Part shown: in pieces, positions 6,402-32,197 of the stretch
Position numbering within the stretch: the first letter of the stretch is position 1
Layout of the letters: each line of letters begins with the position of its first letter
IMG/VR virus record: IMGVR_UViG_3300042463_000209
Location: 1-32,376 of that record
Length of the DNA: 32,376 nucleotides
DNA from: a virus
Direction: 5' to 3' (one strand)
Program-made: the position numbers and the translations under genes
Notes under the pieces: generated by a model
Told to the model about the DNA's origin: nothing
Databases searched by the model: none
Seen by the model: only the letters and a program-made list of their open reading frames with translations

Positions 6402-7196
6402 GTCTACTCATTATGTATTCTTGTTCCGTTTTTAGCTTGAAGTAGTTTAGCCAGAACAGTGTCTTGATGTACGGCTGCTTTGTTATTTGGTCCACATCCT
6501 TTTGAAGCTTCTCAGCCAAGTGTACCAGTAGCCCCGTCCAGATGAACCACTCTGCGTCATTTCTTTCATCTGAGCTGCTGTTGTCTCTTTCAGTATCCTC
6601 GTCTGCTCCTTCGCTCTGATCAGCTGAATCTCCAATATAGCGAGACTCCGCAGCTGTGACTGCCGCAAAAAAAAACCGAAGAAGTCTAGAAACTCATCAC
6701 CAGGGAAACTTTTGAGGAATTTCTCCTTTCGTTTGGATGATGGATTGATGACCTTTCCTCTCTGGTCTTCTTGTGCATACTCCATGCCTTCTTCAATGTA
6801 GCAGATGGCTAGTGCTGCACATGGATCCTCAGCCACTGACTCAATGAGTTTCAAGTCAATGATCTGCCCGGTGCTCATAGTGCTGATGTCTGGCTCATAC
6901 AGGTATGTGACTCCATCAATCACCACACGGCCTGTAGGTAGCTCCTTCTGTACGTAGGTGCCAAGCAATTCAATGATGTGCTTTGTGCAGGCTAGAACGT
7001 CATCAATGTGTGCTTTGCGGACACTGTTCACTGACAAGCCACTGAAGATGCTGATGAGCTGACACTGAAAGTCAAGTGATGTCATCAAGTCTTCTGAAGC
7101 TTCTTGGTACACTGGCGCTATCATCAGCCACTTTGACATCATATCTGGTGTGCAGTCCTGCAGTGTAGTTGGTAGTTTAATCTCAATCTGTTTCAT
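6388..7196 (-). CDS. Tail assembly chaperone, two products by -1 frameshift (gpG / gpGT-like)
   Basis: The zero frame starts at 7196 (ATGA overlap with the terminase stop) and ends at 6483, giving 237 residues. At codons 174-177 the message reads GGU UUU UUU UUG, a run of nine U. A shift to the -1 frame there stays open to a TGA at 6388-6390 and gives 269 residues. The -1 extension (93 residues) is acidic and then ends in a well-formed aromatic, helical stretch (AEWFIWTGLL and TKQPYIKTLFWLNYF). It fills the otherwise empty 6402-6482 gap and overlaps the next gene by 14 bases. Tail assembly chaperones upstream of tape measure genes are classically made this way (lambda G/GT). The shared part is helical, with no catalytic motif. 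The alternative is a genuine indel that broke the gene, but an intact zero frame of 60 further codons argues against decay. Confidence 0.75.
6667..6675 (-). promoter_or_regulatory. Slippery run of nine U (programmed -1 frameshift site)
   Basis: On the coding strand nine T lie between CGG and GCGG. In the zero frame the heptamer U UUU UUU matches the X XXY YYZ rule, so both P-site and A-site tRNAs can re-pair after slipping back one base. The following bases are GC-rich (GCGGCAGTCACAGCTGCGG), and GCGGCAG with CAGCTGC can form a short stem that may stimulate slipping. Transcript slippage on nine T is an equal possibility. Confidence 0.68.
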
Positions 7197-8395
7197 GCTC
7201 TTAAAATTTTATACTTTCCTTTCATCCTGTAGTGGCGAAGTGAATGCCATGCTAGTGCCGTGCTCATCACTCCATCGTCATGCATACCGGAAGGAGCACT
7301 GTACTGCACTTTCCGTGTGTTGATATTGTAAATGTAGGTAAAATTTTCTAGTTCATCAATCAGCCATGCATGCTCCATAATGCGTATCTCATTCTGCTCA
7401 AAGGCCAGTGCCAAGTCTTCAATCAACATTGGCTTGCTCTTGGATGTGGTGGTGAATGGATTGACTAAATTTCTGCACTTGGTCTGCAGCATCTCAAAGA
7501 ACACATCACCTTGATTGTTCACCTCTACCACGGTGACGGCATTGAAACGCTTGATGACATCAGCCACCTTGTCAATGATCTTGCTCCACTCATCTTGGCG
7601 CCATCTCTCCACGTGAATCATATGACCGTGTTCATTCAGTATGGTCAGCACAGTGTAGTCATCTGCTCTACCAATGTCAAGACCTGCATAGGCTTTACCA
7701 CTTGGCTCTGATGCAGCTACAGATGTGCGCACGTTGCGGAACAGTCCAGATGCATTGTCAATAAATTCTGCCATGTACTCCTGCCTGAAGATGTGGTCCG
7801 GCATGGAGCGCTTTCTTTCTTCAAGGTCAGCTGGATGAATCATAGGATTGTCGTAGCTTGTGAAGTGAAAGTATTTGTATCTGTCATCATAGTTGGGTTG
7901 CATGCACACCTTGTGAAAGTGATTCTTTCCTTTTGGTGTGCTGATGAATATCACCTTCTTGCCCTTCACTAGGACGGTTGCACTCAGCACCTCATCCCAT
8001 AGCTCTGACCTGGTGAATGCAAACTCATCAATGATCAGGTAGTCAAATGTGTTCCCTCGTATATTGTCCGGGCGCTCACCTGAGAAGAATGTGATTGTAG
8101 ATCCAAAGCCACTGATGATGAGGTCAGACTTGTTGAAGTCAAACAGGCCACTGGCAGCAGTAGCACGCTCCATCTCACTGAAGACTTTCTTGCCCTGCTT
8201 ATACACTGGAGTTACCCAGGCAATGTTGCACCCCTTGTCATTGATGGCCCAGTACAGCATCTGATTGATGCCAAGCATTGTCTTGCCAAACTGCCTGCCT
8301 ATGTTCAAAGCATAGTACTTCTCCTTGCCTTGATTGATGGCAGTGTGAATGCTCCGCTGATTGTCATGTGGCTTGTATCCTTTGATTGTGCTCAT
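7193..8395 (-). CDS. terL: Terminase large subunit
   Basis: This is the packaging motor ATPase and headful nuclease. The protein has 400 residues from the ATG at 8395. ATPase motifs seen are the terminase-style Walker A GRQFGKT (33-39), Walker B LIIDEF (120-125) and the coupling motif STP (152-154). The RNase H-like nuclease has acidic residues at D240 (GLDIG), E291 (VVEVN) and D373/D374 (HDDG). An open frame extends upstream to 8599. It would add 68 residues of poor, cysteine- and arginine-rich sequence over the end of terS and over a hairpin, so the start at MSTIKGYKPH is preferred. It is followed by the tail chaperone with an ATGA overlap. A terminator-like hairpin and a TATCTTTG box lie just upstream, so terL may be transcribed separately from terS. 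Confidence 0.96.
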   Translation of the reverse strand: MSTIKGYKPHDNQRSIHTAINQGKEKYYALNIGRQFGKTMLGINQMLYWAINDKGCNIAWVTPVYKQGKKVFSEMERATAASGLFDFNKSDLIISGFGSTITFFSGERPDNIRGNTFDYLIIDEFAFTRSELWDEVLSATVLVKGKKVIFISTPKGKNHFHKVCMQPNYDDRYKYFHFTSYDNPMIHPADLEERKRSMPDHIFRQEYMAEFIDNASGLFRNVRTSVAASEPSGKAYAGLDIGRADDYTVLTILNEHGHMIHVERWRQDEWSKIIDKVADVIKRFNAVTVVEVNNQGDVFFEMLQTKCRNLVNPFTTTSKSKPMLIEDLALAFEQNEIRIMEHAWLIDELENFTYIYNINTRKVQYSAPSGMHDDGVMSTALAWHSLRHYRMKGKYKILRA

Positions 8396-8400
8396 AGTAG

Positions 8401-8408
8401 CAAAGATA
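8401..8408 (-). promoter_or_regulatory. Bacteroidetes-type -7 box (TATCTTTG) 5 bases before the terL start
   Basis: TATCTTTG fits the Bacteroidetes -7 consensus TAnnTTTG exactly. It is followed by only five bases before ATG, so a transcript would start at or next to the start codon. Nineteen bases upstream stands CCTG, a weak match to the -33 element TTTG. It directly follows a terminator-like hairpin, which would separate terL from the early transcript. Confidence 0.42.
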
Positions 8409-8441
8409 AAAAAAGCTGTGCATCTTACAGGACACACAGCT
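8409..8441 (-). terminator. Intrinsic terminator between terS and terL
   Basis: On the minus strand AGCTGTG (8441-8435) pairs with CACAGCT (8420-8414) around a 14-base loop, and six further T follow. This 7-bp stem plus U-run lies in the 106-base gap between terS and terL. The loop is large, so partial termination is more likely than a full stop. Confidence 0.55.
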
Positions 8442-8501
8442 ATATTCAGATCAAGTTGCCGTCTATTCCGAGCTGTCATATCTGGGTTGCAGCAGATATT
8501 G

Positions 8502-8906
8502 TTATTCAAAGTCAAATTTCTCCACCGTCTTGGTCTCCACCTGTTGGCGGTCGTGCATGCCAAGCCTGTTCTTTGCGTAGAAGATACCCTTGCCCTCATT
8601 GGCTACAATATCTCTAGCCAGTGCTTTGAATGCTTCGTCAATGTTATGGATCACTCTCTGCTTCTCTGTGTTATCCCAGTTCAGCCATCGGTAGTAGCTA
8701 GATCTTTTTATAGTGTCCTGTCTGGAGTAGTTCCTTGGTATCCATATTCTCAGAAAAAAGTCAATGGTAGGAATGTGCCTATTGAGTTTTTTGACTATAC
8801 GGCCCTGAGATACTTCCTCAGTTGTATTCGTCAAGCACTCATCAATATACTGTTCTGCCAGTGTGAACAGGTTATATACAAATGCAGGTGATTTATCGGT
8901 TGCCAT
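8502..8906 (-). CDS. terS: Terminase small subunit
   Basis: This DNA-recognition partner of terL has 134 residues, is all-helical in appearance and is basic in the middle. The C-terminal half carries GKGIFYAKNRLGMHDR (about residues 107-122), which I recognise as a conserved signature of small terminases in Bacteroidetes phages. The N-terminal half probably holds the HTH that finds the packaging site. It lies one gene-length upstream of terL, in the same direction. The 106-base gap between them holds a terminator-like hairpin and a promoter-like box. No clear pac or cos site can be picked out by eye. Confidence 0.8.
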   Translation of the reverse strand: MATDKSPAFVYNLFTLAEQYIDECLTNTTEEVSQGRIVKKLNRHIPTIDFFLRIWIPRNYSRQDTIKRSSYYRWLNWDNTEKQRVIHNIDEAFKALARDIVANEGKGIFYAKNRLGMHDRQQVETKTVEKFDFE

Positions 8907-29775: not shown

Positions 29776-30516
29776 TTACTTGTTTAGATTGTTGCGTAAA
29801 TGTATTTGTCTAGCTGTTAGAGTGCTAGTAACTCTGGAAAATTTTTCAGTCTCAGTCACGTTGTTTGAAGGTGCTGCTTTGAAGGTCTCGAATTCACCTT
29901 TCAGTCCAGATACTTCATTGCGGAGTGTCTCATTCTCGGATGAAATAGTCTTGATCATTTCAGCCATACCCTCGAATACAGCGCTGAATGCTTCAAGCTT
30001 TCCATTCACAATTGTTTCCACATCCTCAGATGACATTGACTGTGCAACTTCCACTGCACTGTCTTCATTGATTTTTGCGATCACAGCAGTTGCCACGTCA
30101 TAGGCTACTCCCATCTCAAGTCCTAATTTTTCAGCTATCACTTCTGTGACATCCTCCAAAACTTGTGGTAAGATGTCAGCTGAGATTGCCTCAAATTCTG
30201 AGCTTGTTTCTTCTGCTACTGGTAAGTCATTTGAAGCAGATGCTGTTGTATCAATCACTTCAGTGACAATTCCATTTGCATCAACAACAATAGAAATTCC
30301 AGCCATTTCTCCACCAAGTGCATGCGTGCCCTCTGGAGCTGGTACCTGCTCAGTCTCAGTCACTACAAATACAGCTGTACCAACAACAAGCTCTCCTTCA
30401 TAAGAGATTTGTGTGCCGTCTTCTAGCACTGCCTCGTTGAAAGCTTGTGCTGATGCTGAAAATGTAGCTTTCAAGTCTCTGATTGAGTCCATGATTGCTT
30501 TGAAATTTTCGTTCAT
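29776..30516 (-). CDS. Capsid assembly scaffold-like protein
   Basis: This 246-residue acidic protein is N-terminally helical (MNENFKAIMDSIRDLKATF). A small beta unit (LEDGTQISYEGELVVGTAVFVV, then APEGTHALGGEMAGISIVVDANGIVTEV) resembles a short beta-barrel insert. Long helices follow (about 180-215, ENETLRNEVSGLKGEFETF), and the end is basic and polar (TARQIHLRNNLNK). A coiled coil plus a basic tail that can hold the capsid subunit is typical of scaffolds. It lies between prohead protease and capsid genes and would be cut and released by the protease. Confidence 0.74.
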   Translation of the reverse strand: MNENFKAIMDSIRDLKATFSASAQAFNEAVLEDGTQISYEGELVVGTAVFVVTETEQVPAPEGTHALGGEMAGISIVVDANGIVTEVIDTTASASNDLPVAEETSSEFEAISADILPQVLEDVTEVIAEKLGLEMGVAYDVATAVIAKINEDSAVEVAQSMSSEDVETIVNGKLEAFSAVFEGMAEMIKTISSENETLRNEVSGLKGEFETFKAAPSNNVTETEKFSRVTSTLTARQIHLRNNLNK

Positions 30517-30550: not shown

Positions 30551-31456
30551 CTAAATTTTCCAAGCTTCTGCCTCAGTATTTTCTCTGATCAGCTCTAATT
30601 CTTCTGCATTATTGTCAATGTGCTTGCTTATTCTCAGCCTATTCACTAGCATATACTTATGCTTGCCTGCAGTGAAGTACACATTCTCCTTTTTGATGCC
30701 TAGCTTTGTGGCCATTTCGTAAACTGGTCCACCATTGGACTGTGTTCTGGCTGTGATGATGAAGATTTCATCACCTGCTGCAAGGTATCTGCGTGCCATG
30801 TCCTGGCCTTTTGCTGTAGTCAAGGTATCATCATAGTCAAATGAGATTCGTTTCCTAGCAAAGGCCATATCTTTAAGGCTGTCAATTTCTTTCTTGATTG
30901 CAGCCATCATTGCTTCTTCACTTGTGCCTACGTGTTCCAGGATGAAGTCACCTTCTACACTGAATCCTGTCCATTCACCTGCCTTGGCCCGGTTATATAG
31001 CTCAGTGTTCTGTGTTTTGTAGCTCACTATCCAGCTGCCATCATTCACATCCTTGAAGCGCTCAGGTGCTGTGAGTCCTTTGTCATTGTCTACCTGGTAG
31101 CTGTGGATCATATAGATATCATCAATCACGTTGCGGCCATTGTGCTCAATGTTCACATTGTTGTAGTTGCCTCTCCTAGCATAGTCAAAAATGATATCTT
31201 TGATTGCAGCCTTGGTGAATACCACATAGTATTCTTCTTTGGTCCTGCTGTCGTATCTGTAGATTGGAGTGTCTGCTGATATTGCCACTCCACTGATGAC
31301 CTGCTCCACGTCATTGAATTCAAAGCGCTTTGCATTGGCAAAAGTCTGAAAGGAGATTTCATGTGCAGGATCATGCACCAGGCTATTGAAGCTCACCGTA
31401 GTTTCTTCATTGTTGAGATCTATGGAGATTTCGTATATTGGTAAGTTCTTTATCAT
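30551..31456 (-). CDS. XkdF-like prohead serine protease fused to a HAD-like domain
   Basis: The protein has 301 residues from 31456. An extension to 31534 would overlap the plus-strand gene and lacks support. Residues 1-180 fit XkdF/U35-type prohead proteases: H105 in NIEHNGR and S166 in GFSVEG, with a beta-rich body. Residues 200-301 carry HAD motifs: DYDDT (207-211, nucleophile D207, second D209), T235 in IITAR, K265/K267 and D281 in HIDNN. This is a complete small HAD phosphatase-like core. Such a fusion is unusual. The HAD half could be a phosphatase, a nucleotide- or sugar-phosphate binding module, or dead. It is the first gene of the head block. Confidence 0.82.
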   Translation of the reverse strand: MIKNLPIYEISIDLNNEETTVSFNSLVHDPAHEISFQTFANAKRFEFNDVEQVISGVAISADTPIYRYDSRTKEEYYVVFTKAAIKDIIFDYARRGNYNNVNIEHNGRNVIDDIYMIHSYQVDNDKGLTAPERFKDVNDGSWIVSYKTQNTELYNRAKAGEWTGFSVEGDFILEHVGTSEEAMMAAIKKEIDSLKDMAFARKRISFDYDDTLTTAKGQDMARRYLAAGDEIFIITARTQSNGGPVYEMATKLGIKKENVYFTAGKHKYMLVNRLRISKHIDNNAEELELIRENTEAEAWKI

Positions 31457-31480: not shown

Positions 31481-32197
31481 ATGAAGTTCGTCTATCCATA
31501 CAAATACCGGTACAATTATTTTGAGATTGAGCACTCAGTGAGATGGCTGTACCTTGCCTATCCTGATGCTGAAGTCTATATCATTGGTGACAAGCCACAA
31601 ATATCTTCACCATTTATCCACATACCGTATGAGTCATATCTGCCGTATGCTGGATGTGATGTGACTGACAAAGTGATGACATTCTGCAAGATGATTGGTG
31701 ATGAGTTCATCTTGATGAATGATGACTTCTTCATCACTGAAAGATTCCCACTTCACCAGGTCATGTACTATGACTTTCTTAATGTCAATCCTTCACACTC
31801 CATCACCTATCAGCGTGCTTGTGAACACACCATTGACTGGCTCACTCATCACTACTGTGAAACCTACAGCTTTGAATGTCATCAGCCTGTGCACATCCAG
31901 TCAAGCAAGTTCATTGAGTTGTTTGAACACATCCACTACCAGGCACACAATCACCTGCTGAAGTCCATCTACTTCAATGTATGGCCACCAAGAAAGTATG
32001 AAGGTACAAATCTGAAGTTTGGCTATTCACTGACCAAGGCAAAAGAAGCACTGGAGAAGTACGGTGCTTTCAGCTGCTCTGAAGAATTTCTCACAGCTGA
32101 AAACAAGCGCTTCATCAGTACGTACTCAGGCTCTGCTGAGTTGCCACCTTCTGTTGGGTGCCAGTTATGTCACTCTCCAGTACCACCACTTGACTGA
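31481..32197 (+). CDS. Stealth/glycosyltransferase-like protein
   Basis: This 238-residue protein is the only plus-strand gene. The first 85 residues follow the nucleotide-sugar phosphotransferase (Stealth CR2) or GT-A plan: HSVRWLYLAYPDAEVYIIGDKP (18-39), then a HIPYESYLPYAG segment, then DEFILMNDDFFIT (74-86) with the metal-binding N-D-D. In the second half PVHIQSSKFIELF and VWPPRKYEGTN carry an H and basic residues as expected for CR3/CR4. It has no signal peptide or membrane helix. Enzymes of this kind transfer sugar phosphates onto surface glycans, so it might change host or phage surface sugars. The last 27 codons lie opposite the tape measure gene. Confidence 0.6.
   Translation: MKFVYPYKYRYNYFEIEHSVRWLYLAYPDAEVYIIGDKPQISSPFIHIPYESYLPYAGCDVTDKVMTFCKMIGDEFILMNDDFFITERFPLHQVMYYDFLNVNPSHSITYQRACEHTIDWLTHHYCETYSFECHQPVHIQSSKFIELFEHIHYQAHNHLLKSIYFNVWPPRKYEGTNLKFGYSLTKAKEALEKYGAFSCSEEFLTAENKRFISTYSGSAELPPSVGCQLCHSPVPPLD

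Follow-up and report, generated by a model that had tools for sequence, protein, structure and literature searches.

Head maturation proteases are usually viewed as tools for assembly, to be discarded after use. The viral DNA analysed here (the window; 32,376 nucleotides, positions 1 to 32,376 of IMG/VR virus record IMGVR_UViG_3300042463_000209) encodes a protease of this kind that continues into a HAD-like phosphatase core. Why would a head protease carry a phosphatase? We analyzed both halves of the protein, its relatives and the other places in which the HAD module is found.

The protease half and its link to the HAD core

The fusion occupies a single reading frame on the minus strand (Table 1). 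The plus strand of the same interval is closed by stops, and the start codon of the fusion is kept in relatives. The protease half matches PF14550 with an E-value of 7.3e-8 and 32.9 bits, above the curated cut-off of 24. PHROG head-protease families also match it, more weakly. H105 and S166, which the original prediction had singled out, are invariant in 11 fusion proteins, and both columns are kept in the core alignment of the protease. By its profile match and conserved His and Ser, this half is assigned to the XkdF/Peptidase_S78_2 type. Scaffold-like, probable capsid and portal genes are its neighbors, as in that family. Unlike the window protein, most close relatives lack the HAD; these protease-only proteins are 198-205 residues long and terminate about where the linking helix ends.

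The mean dN/dS is about 0.11 for the HAD half and about 0.08 for the protease half. Because it is near 0.1 in each, both halves are estimated to be under strong purifying selection. No second HAD copy was found in the window. For production of a free HAD from an internal start in the window gene, there is no obvious ribosome site ahead of M184/M185, and the ATG-ATG at this position is missing in some relatives.

Table 1. Positions of the features discussed (window coordinates unless contigs are named)
Feature	Position	Strand	Basis or remark
XkdF head protease-HAD fusion gene, 301 aa	30551..31456	-	ATG at 31456, stop 30553-30551
XkdF/Peptidase_S78_2 protease domain, residues 51-169	30950..31306	-	PF14550 match
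H105 of protease half	31142-31144	-	Invariant in fusion proteins
S166 of protease half	30959-30961	-	Invariant in fusion proteins
Linking helix, residues 180-198	30863..30919	-	Helix in AF2 model
Capless HAD core, residues 199-301	30554..30862	-	AF2 model, fold match, motif conservation
HAD motif I, D207/D209	30836-30838, 30830-30832	-	Relatives alignment
HAD motif II, T235	30752-30754	-	Relatives alignment
HAD K267	30656-30658	-	Relatives alignment
HAD motif IV, D281	30614-30616	-	Relatives alignment
Scaffold-like gene, 246 aa, next gene	29776..30516	-	Inferred from position and sequence
Probable major capsid protein, 319 aa	28814..29773	-	Inferred from position
Portal protein, 659 aa	25666..27645	-	phrog_11226 E 1.2e-25, phrog_33693 E 6.6e-20
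Terminase large subunit	7193..8599	-	PF03237 E 2.2e-21, phrog_2 E 1.7e-49
Protease-A10-HAD(-1) contigs	L328-L339 except L334 (e.g. L333)		Include contigs of L196, L197, L229, L251, L255, L258

Fold and motifs of the HAD half

The AF2 model of the window protein was built on a 47-row alignment. Residues 200-301 are predicted with pLDDT of 86-94 per ten-residue block and form a five-strand Rossmann-like sheet (strands 203-207, 230-235, 259-261, 278-281 and 297-300), in agreement with the core that had been expected in residues 195-301. The protease half is modeled less well, with pLDDT of 40-84 per block. In VIA-align, the top match of the HAD half is the 3'-phosphatase of T4 Pnkp (5uj0; Z 12.3, rmsd 1.7 Å, 97 residues aligned). 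Other HADs rank lower, including phosphoserine phosphatase, a deoxyribonucleotidase-like protein and AphA. Universal stress proteins, which belong to a different Rossmann-like group, score almost level with Pnkp, and they come first, with low TM-scores, in a Foldseek search with the whole two-domain model. Since they score so close, the fold match alone is unspecific and the HAD assignment is carried by the motifs.

These motifs are highly conserved. D207, D209, T211, S/T235 and R237 are present in all 114 distinct HAD relatives, the search pattern ISFDYDD accounting for part of the conservation of motif I. Position 235 in motif II is Ser in 94 of them and Thr in 20. The original prediction had offered K265 or K267 as the motif III lysine; K267 is kept in 113 of the 114 and K265 in 78, which singles out K267. 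H279, D281 and N282 are found in 113 of 113, a figure partly biased in motif IV by loci found through the pattern H[YI]DNN. Motifs II and III are not touched by bias from the search patterns. Motif IV reads D-N-N: D281 is followed by Asn and not by a second Asp, D-D being commoner among HADs. The predicted catalytic residues D207, D209, T235 and D281 thus hold near-invariantly, and the PF14550 match, the motif set and the modeled core confirm that a protease and a complete HAD core share one gene.

Profile searches place the HAD half far from named families. None of the Pfam and NCBIfam HAD models matches above its cut-off; PF00702 reached an E-value of 0.029 in a single member out of 22. Neither the window protein nor the HAD alignment had a significant match when searched against PDB sequences, and hhalign gave a probability of 9.8% for kinship with T4 Pnkp, which is not significant. 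The matches to the nucleotidase family phrog_8630 and to PF06189 are weak; naming the family after them was dropped, and they are taken as a substrate hint. By fold and motifs, the HAD half is a divergent member of the HAD superfamily.

Similar to the 3'-phosphatase domain of T4 Pnkp (PseT), the modeled HAD core has DxD, S/T-x-R, K and D motifs that correspond in kind. Unlike T4 Pnkp, it has no kinase domain, is about 40 residues below the 5uj0 chain in length and shares 16% identity with it. In these models the link is one of fold resemblance only. HAD enzymes that lack a cap frequently have large substrates. The fold and the weak profile matches lean to a nucleotide or polynucleotide phosphate as the substrate.

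The fusion in relatives

A scan of IMG/VR with the whole window protein yielded 58 loci. The HAD is located C-terminal to XkdF in 17 ORFs including that of the window (one locus per contig), so that other phages do carry the fusion, in 16 further contigs. The original prediction had considered that the halves might be separate genes in relatives and the joint an assembly error. Relatives with a separate HAD gene that overlaps the protease gene and follows it exist in L085, L116, L246 and L250; an assembly error at the joint is ruled out by the 16 further contigs.

In a protease tree from a short search, the 17 C-terminal fusions form one clade (SH-aLRT 84-89), and the sisters of this clade within the protease family are without HAD. 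A single origin suffices for these fusions, judging from this tree. In one member, L017, the reading frame of the protease half is broken. The same fusion is found in A0A6J5N6Z6 (BFVD) from an uncultured Caudovirales phage, 301 residues long and 69% identical over the full length. It is labeled just 'Phage-like element PBSX protein, XkdF', with the HAD half unnamed. Among isolated phages we found XkdF halves or distant HAD genes, and no full-length fusion.

A further module, NDYP, sits between the protease and the HAD in four of the 17 fusions. It occurs at L014:6598-6915 and in 21 other stretches. Its model is all-helical, with pLDDT 94.8, and has no match in the PDB. L019 contains NDYP and L022-L024 do not, and the protease cores of these are identical.

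The HAD module in other contexts

The original prediction called a phosphatase module in the maturation protease unexpected. The fusion is not singular: in many uncultured phages the same HAD is found on either side of XkdF, in portal proteins and beside terminase genes. Among 132 HAD-bearing ORFs, the HAD is N-terminal to XkdF in 79, C-terminal in 17, part of a portal protein in four and a separate gene just after the protease in three, counts that depend on the queries used. The remaining ORFs are solo or contain small modules, and some are contig fragments. Solo and AVC-HAD genes are located just upstream of terminase genes in L086, L095, L098, L102, L105 and L103.

This gives a name to an unannotated module that is encoded in at least 574 IMG/VR stretches, among 600 candidates listed in a scan with the HAD alignment, compared with one contig in a search of one genome each of 84,980 prokaryote species. 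That contig is from a Bacteroidetes MAG, in which the HAD has a gene of its own that overlaps the XkdF gene. Nonlabens and Flavobacterium phages match the two halves. Because of these matches and the MAG, the phages with the module probably infect Bacteroidota, a tentative host assignment.

The dipeptide F[AS] is found at the module joins in nine of nine distinct strings with XkdF before HAD and in 37 of 39 with HAD before XkdF. About 0.10 per 11 residues is expected, and the strings are not independent. A linker or cleavage motif is suggested. In L107 (1004-6475), a 1,824-residue protein combines this HAD with a SET domain and has a match to phage lysozyme below the threshold.

Out-of-frame modules behind poly-A runs

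Among 80 protease relatives of L084, the HAD adjoins the protease in eight. Six of these HADs lie in the -1 frame and are preceded by none of the codons ATG, GTG and TTG. The join in all six is GA10, the sole A-run of nine or more in those loci. A pattern scan that demanded A10 and left the frame free gave 12 contigs. In 11 of them, including the six contigs of the L084 type, the protease runs up to A10, and the HAD behind it is read in the -1 frame and lacks a start codon (Table 1). Because of this arrangement, the HAD would hardly be made in the 11 contigs except as a protease fusion. In one A10 contig with the same junction, the HAD is 84% identical to the reference and the protease just 54%, indicating that the junction is common to diverged proteases.

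The length of A10 is constant, and a homopolymer error is therefore unlikely. The junction is probably a programmed slip that yields the protease and some protease-HAD. Additionally, a T3-A12 tract ends the protease and NDYP continues in the -1 frame in L029, L038, L039, L041, L043 and L045; protease and NDYP are in frame in L031, L052, L053, L054 and L056. In the window gene, runs of A or T do not exceed five, and the HAD is in frame.

In recoded phage structural proteins, such as the T3 major coat protein and those with Ig-like extensions (PMC5009743), a -1 frameshift adds a C-terminal domain to a fraction of the product. The window's relatives are similar to such recoded structural proteins in having a C-terminal extension in the -1 frame. 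They differ in that a head protease is extended, by HAD or NDYP, and the window gene differs in being in frame. Neither the fusion nor the slip is described in the literature passages searched, which include few subscription papers.

Possible roles of the phosphatase

The HAD module is joined to several head proteins or located beside packaging genes. This variety, with attachment in some phages apparently only by frame slip, suggests that the module has been added deliberately, as a cargo enzyme or a packaging enzyme. Our preferred reading, held tentatively, is that an active phosphatase module is carried into the prohead on the protease and is probably ejected cargo. The gene product would be a head maturation protease of the XkdF type to which a capless HAD phosphatase has been added. 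The HAD half would be an active Mg-dependent phosphomonoesterase. Its substrates may be large or nucleic-acid-like phosphates, because a cap domain is absent and the nearest solved fold is the T4 Pnkp 3'-phosphatase. It would enter the prohead through its link to the protease, stay inside the head once maturation is done, and leave it together with the ejected DNA to function early in infection. In the other lineage, the dose of HAD-bearing protease would probably be set by the -1 slip on A10.

Ejection of this kind resembles what has been proposed for other phage proteins. PMC5512222 describes polyvalent proteins of phages and conjugative elements, in which disparate enzymatic domains are combined with head proteins or a head-processing peptidase; packaging and injection into the host are proposed there for polyvalent and MuF-linked effectors. 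The window protein is similar in having disparate domains in one head-associated polypeptide, and the module is similarly reshuffled. The SET-HAD-lysozyme-like make-up of L107 also resembles the polyvalent proteins in that text. The differences are that the peptidase is XkdF and not assemblin-like, that the window protein has two domains only, and that its ejection is a hypothesis. A HAD domain was not found in the searched text on polyvalent proteins (PMC5512222).

The joining of the module to XkdF on either side and to portals, and its place beside terminase genes, also count for cargo, as do the recurrence of the fusion in one clade, the low dN/dS, the kept motif residues, the fold match and the HADs behind A10 that lack a start codon. 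Counted against it are the absence of a HAD profile above cut-off, the lack of significant Pnkp kinship, the close scores of universal stress proteins and the D-N-N form of motif IV. In some relatives the HAD is stand-alone with its own ATG, and in some it is beside the terminase; packaging of the enzyme is thus not required. A more specific proposal, in which the protease serves to bring an active capless phosphatase into the capsid for delivery and some phages meter the load by programmed poly-A slippage, we consider rather unlikely as a whole.

The HAD could instead act while the phage is being assembled, at the prohead or at the motor that packages the DNA, for example by dephosphorylating DNA ends or nucleotides, and not be ejected. 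We regard this as unlikely. Most resolved HAD contexts are head or packaging genes (protease, portal, just upstream of terminase), and the nearest fold is a 3'-end phosphatase. However, close protease-only relatives, many of them on short contigs, lack the HAD, which argues against a general packaging need, and late-gene blocks gather unrelated extra genes too.

We likewise find it unlikely that the HAD is a cytoplasmic accessory (moron) enzyme whose fusion arose neutrally from gene adjacency, with the protease possibly cleaving the HAD off. The separate overlapping genes after the protease and the solo HADs in other places agree with such an origin. The 11 contigs with an out-of-frame HAD, no start codon and a conserved A10 instead tie the HAD to the protease, and a neutral process would hardly attach the HAD to different head proteins by different routes. 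It is very improbable that the HAD fold is catalytically idle and serves for binding or structure, as a scaffold contact or phosphate sensor: motif IV has Asn where many HADs carry a second Asp, and relatives hold other modules of unknown activity at the same position, but the nucleophile, acid, Ser/Thr, Lys and Mg-binding Asp are near-invariant over 114 sequences from different contexts. The regulatory sensor of the original prediction finds no support, and the kept catalytic set favors an enzyme.

If the cargo reading is true, the recurrent attachment of a phosphatase, apparently by slip only in one lineage, makes the protease a cargo carrier and provides a concrete example of enzyme loading into phage heads.

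Neighboring genes in the window

The fusion gene is followed by genes for head proteins (Table 1). The scaffold-like protein has no significant family match. The probable capsid protein matches phrog_11320, of unknown function, with an E-value of 1.9e-12. The portal protein contains about 230 extra C-terminal residues, with a below-cut-off winged-helix match and a Cys/His-containing end. On the other side of the protease, a plus-strand ORF at 31481-32197 encodes 238 residues, matches phrog_7999 (unknown function; E 3.6e-16) and opposes the minus-strand head genes. The tape measure gene (1-2379) runs off the low end of the window. Judging by the gene order in L085 and L116, the contig looks like a circularly permuted genome in which the tape measure lies directly upstream of the protease.
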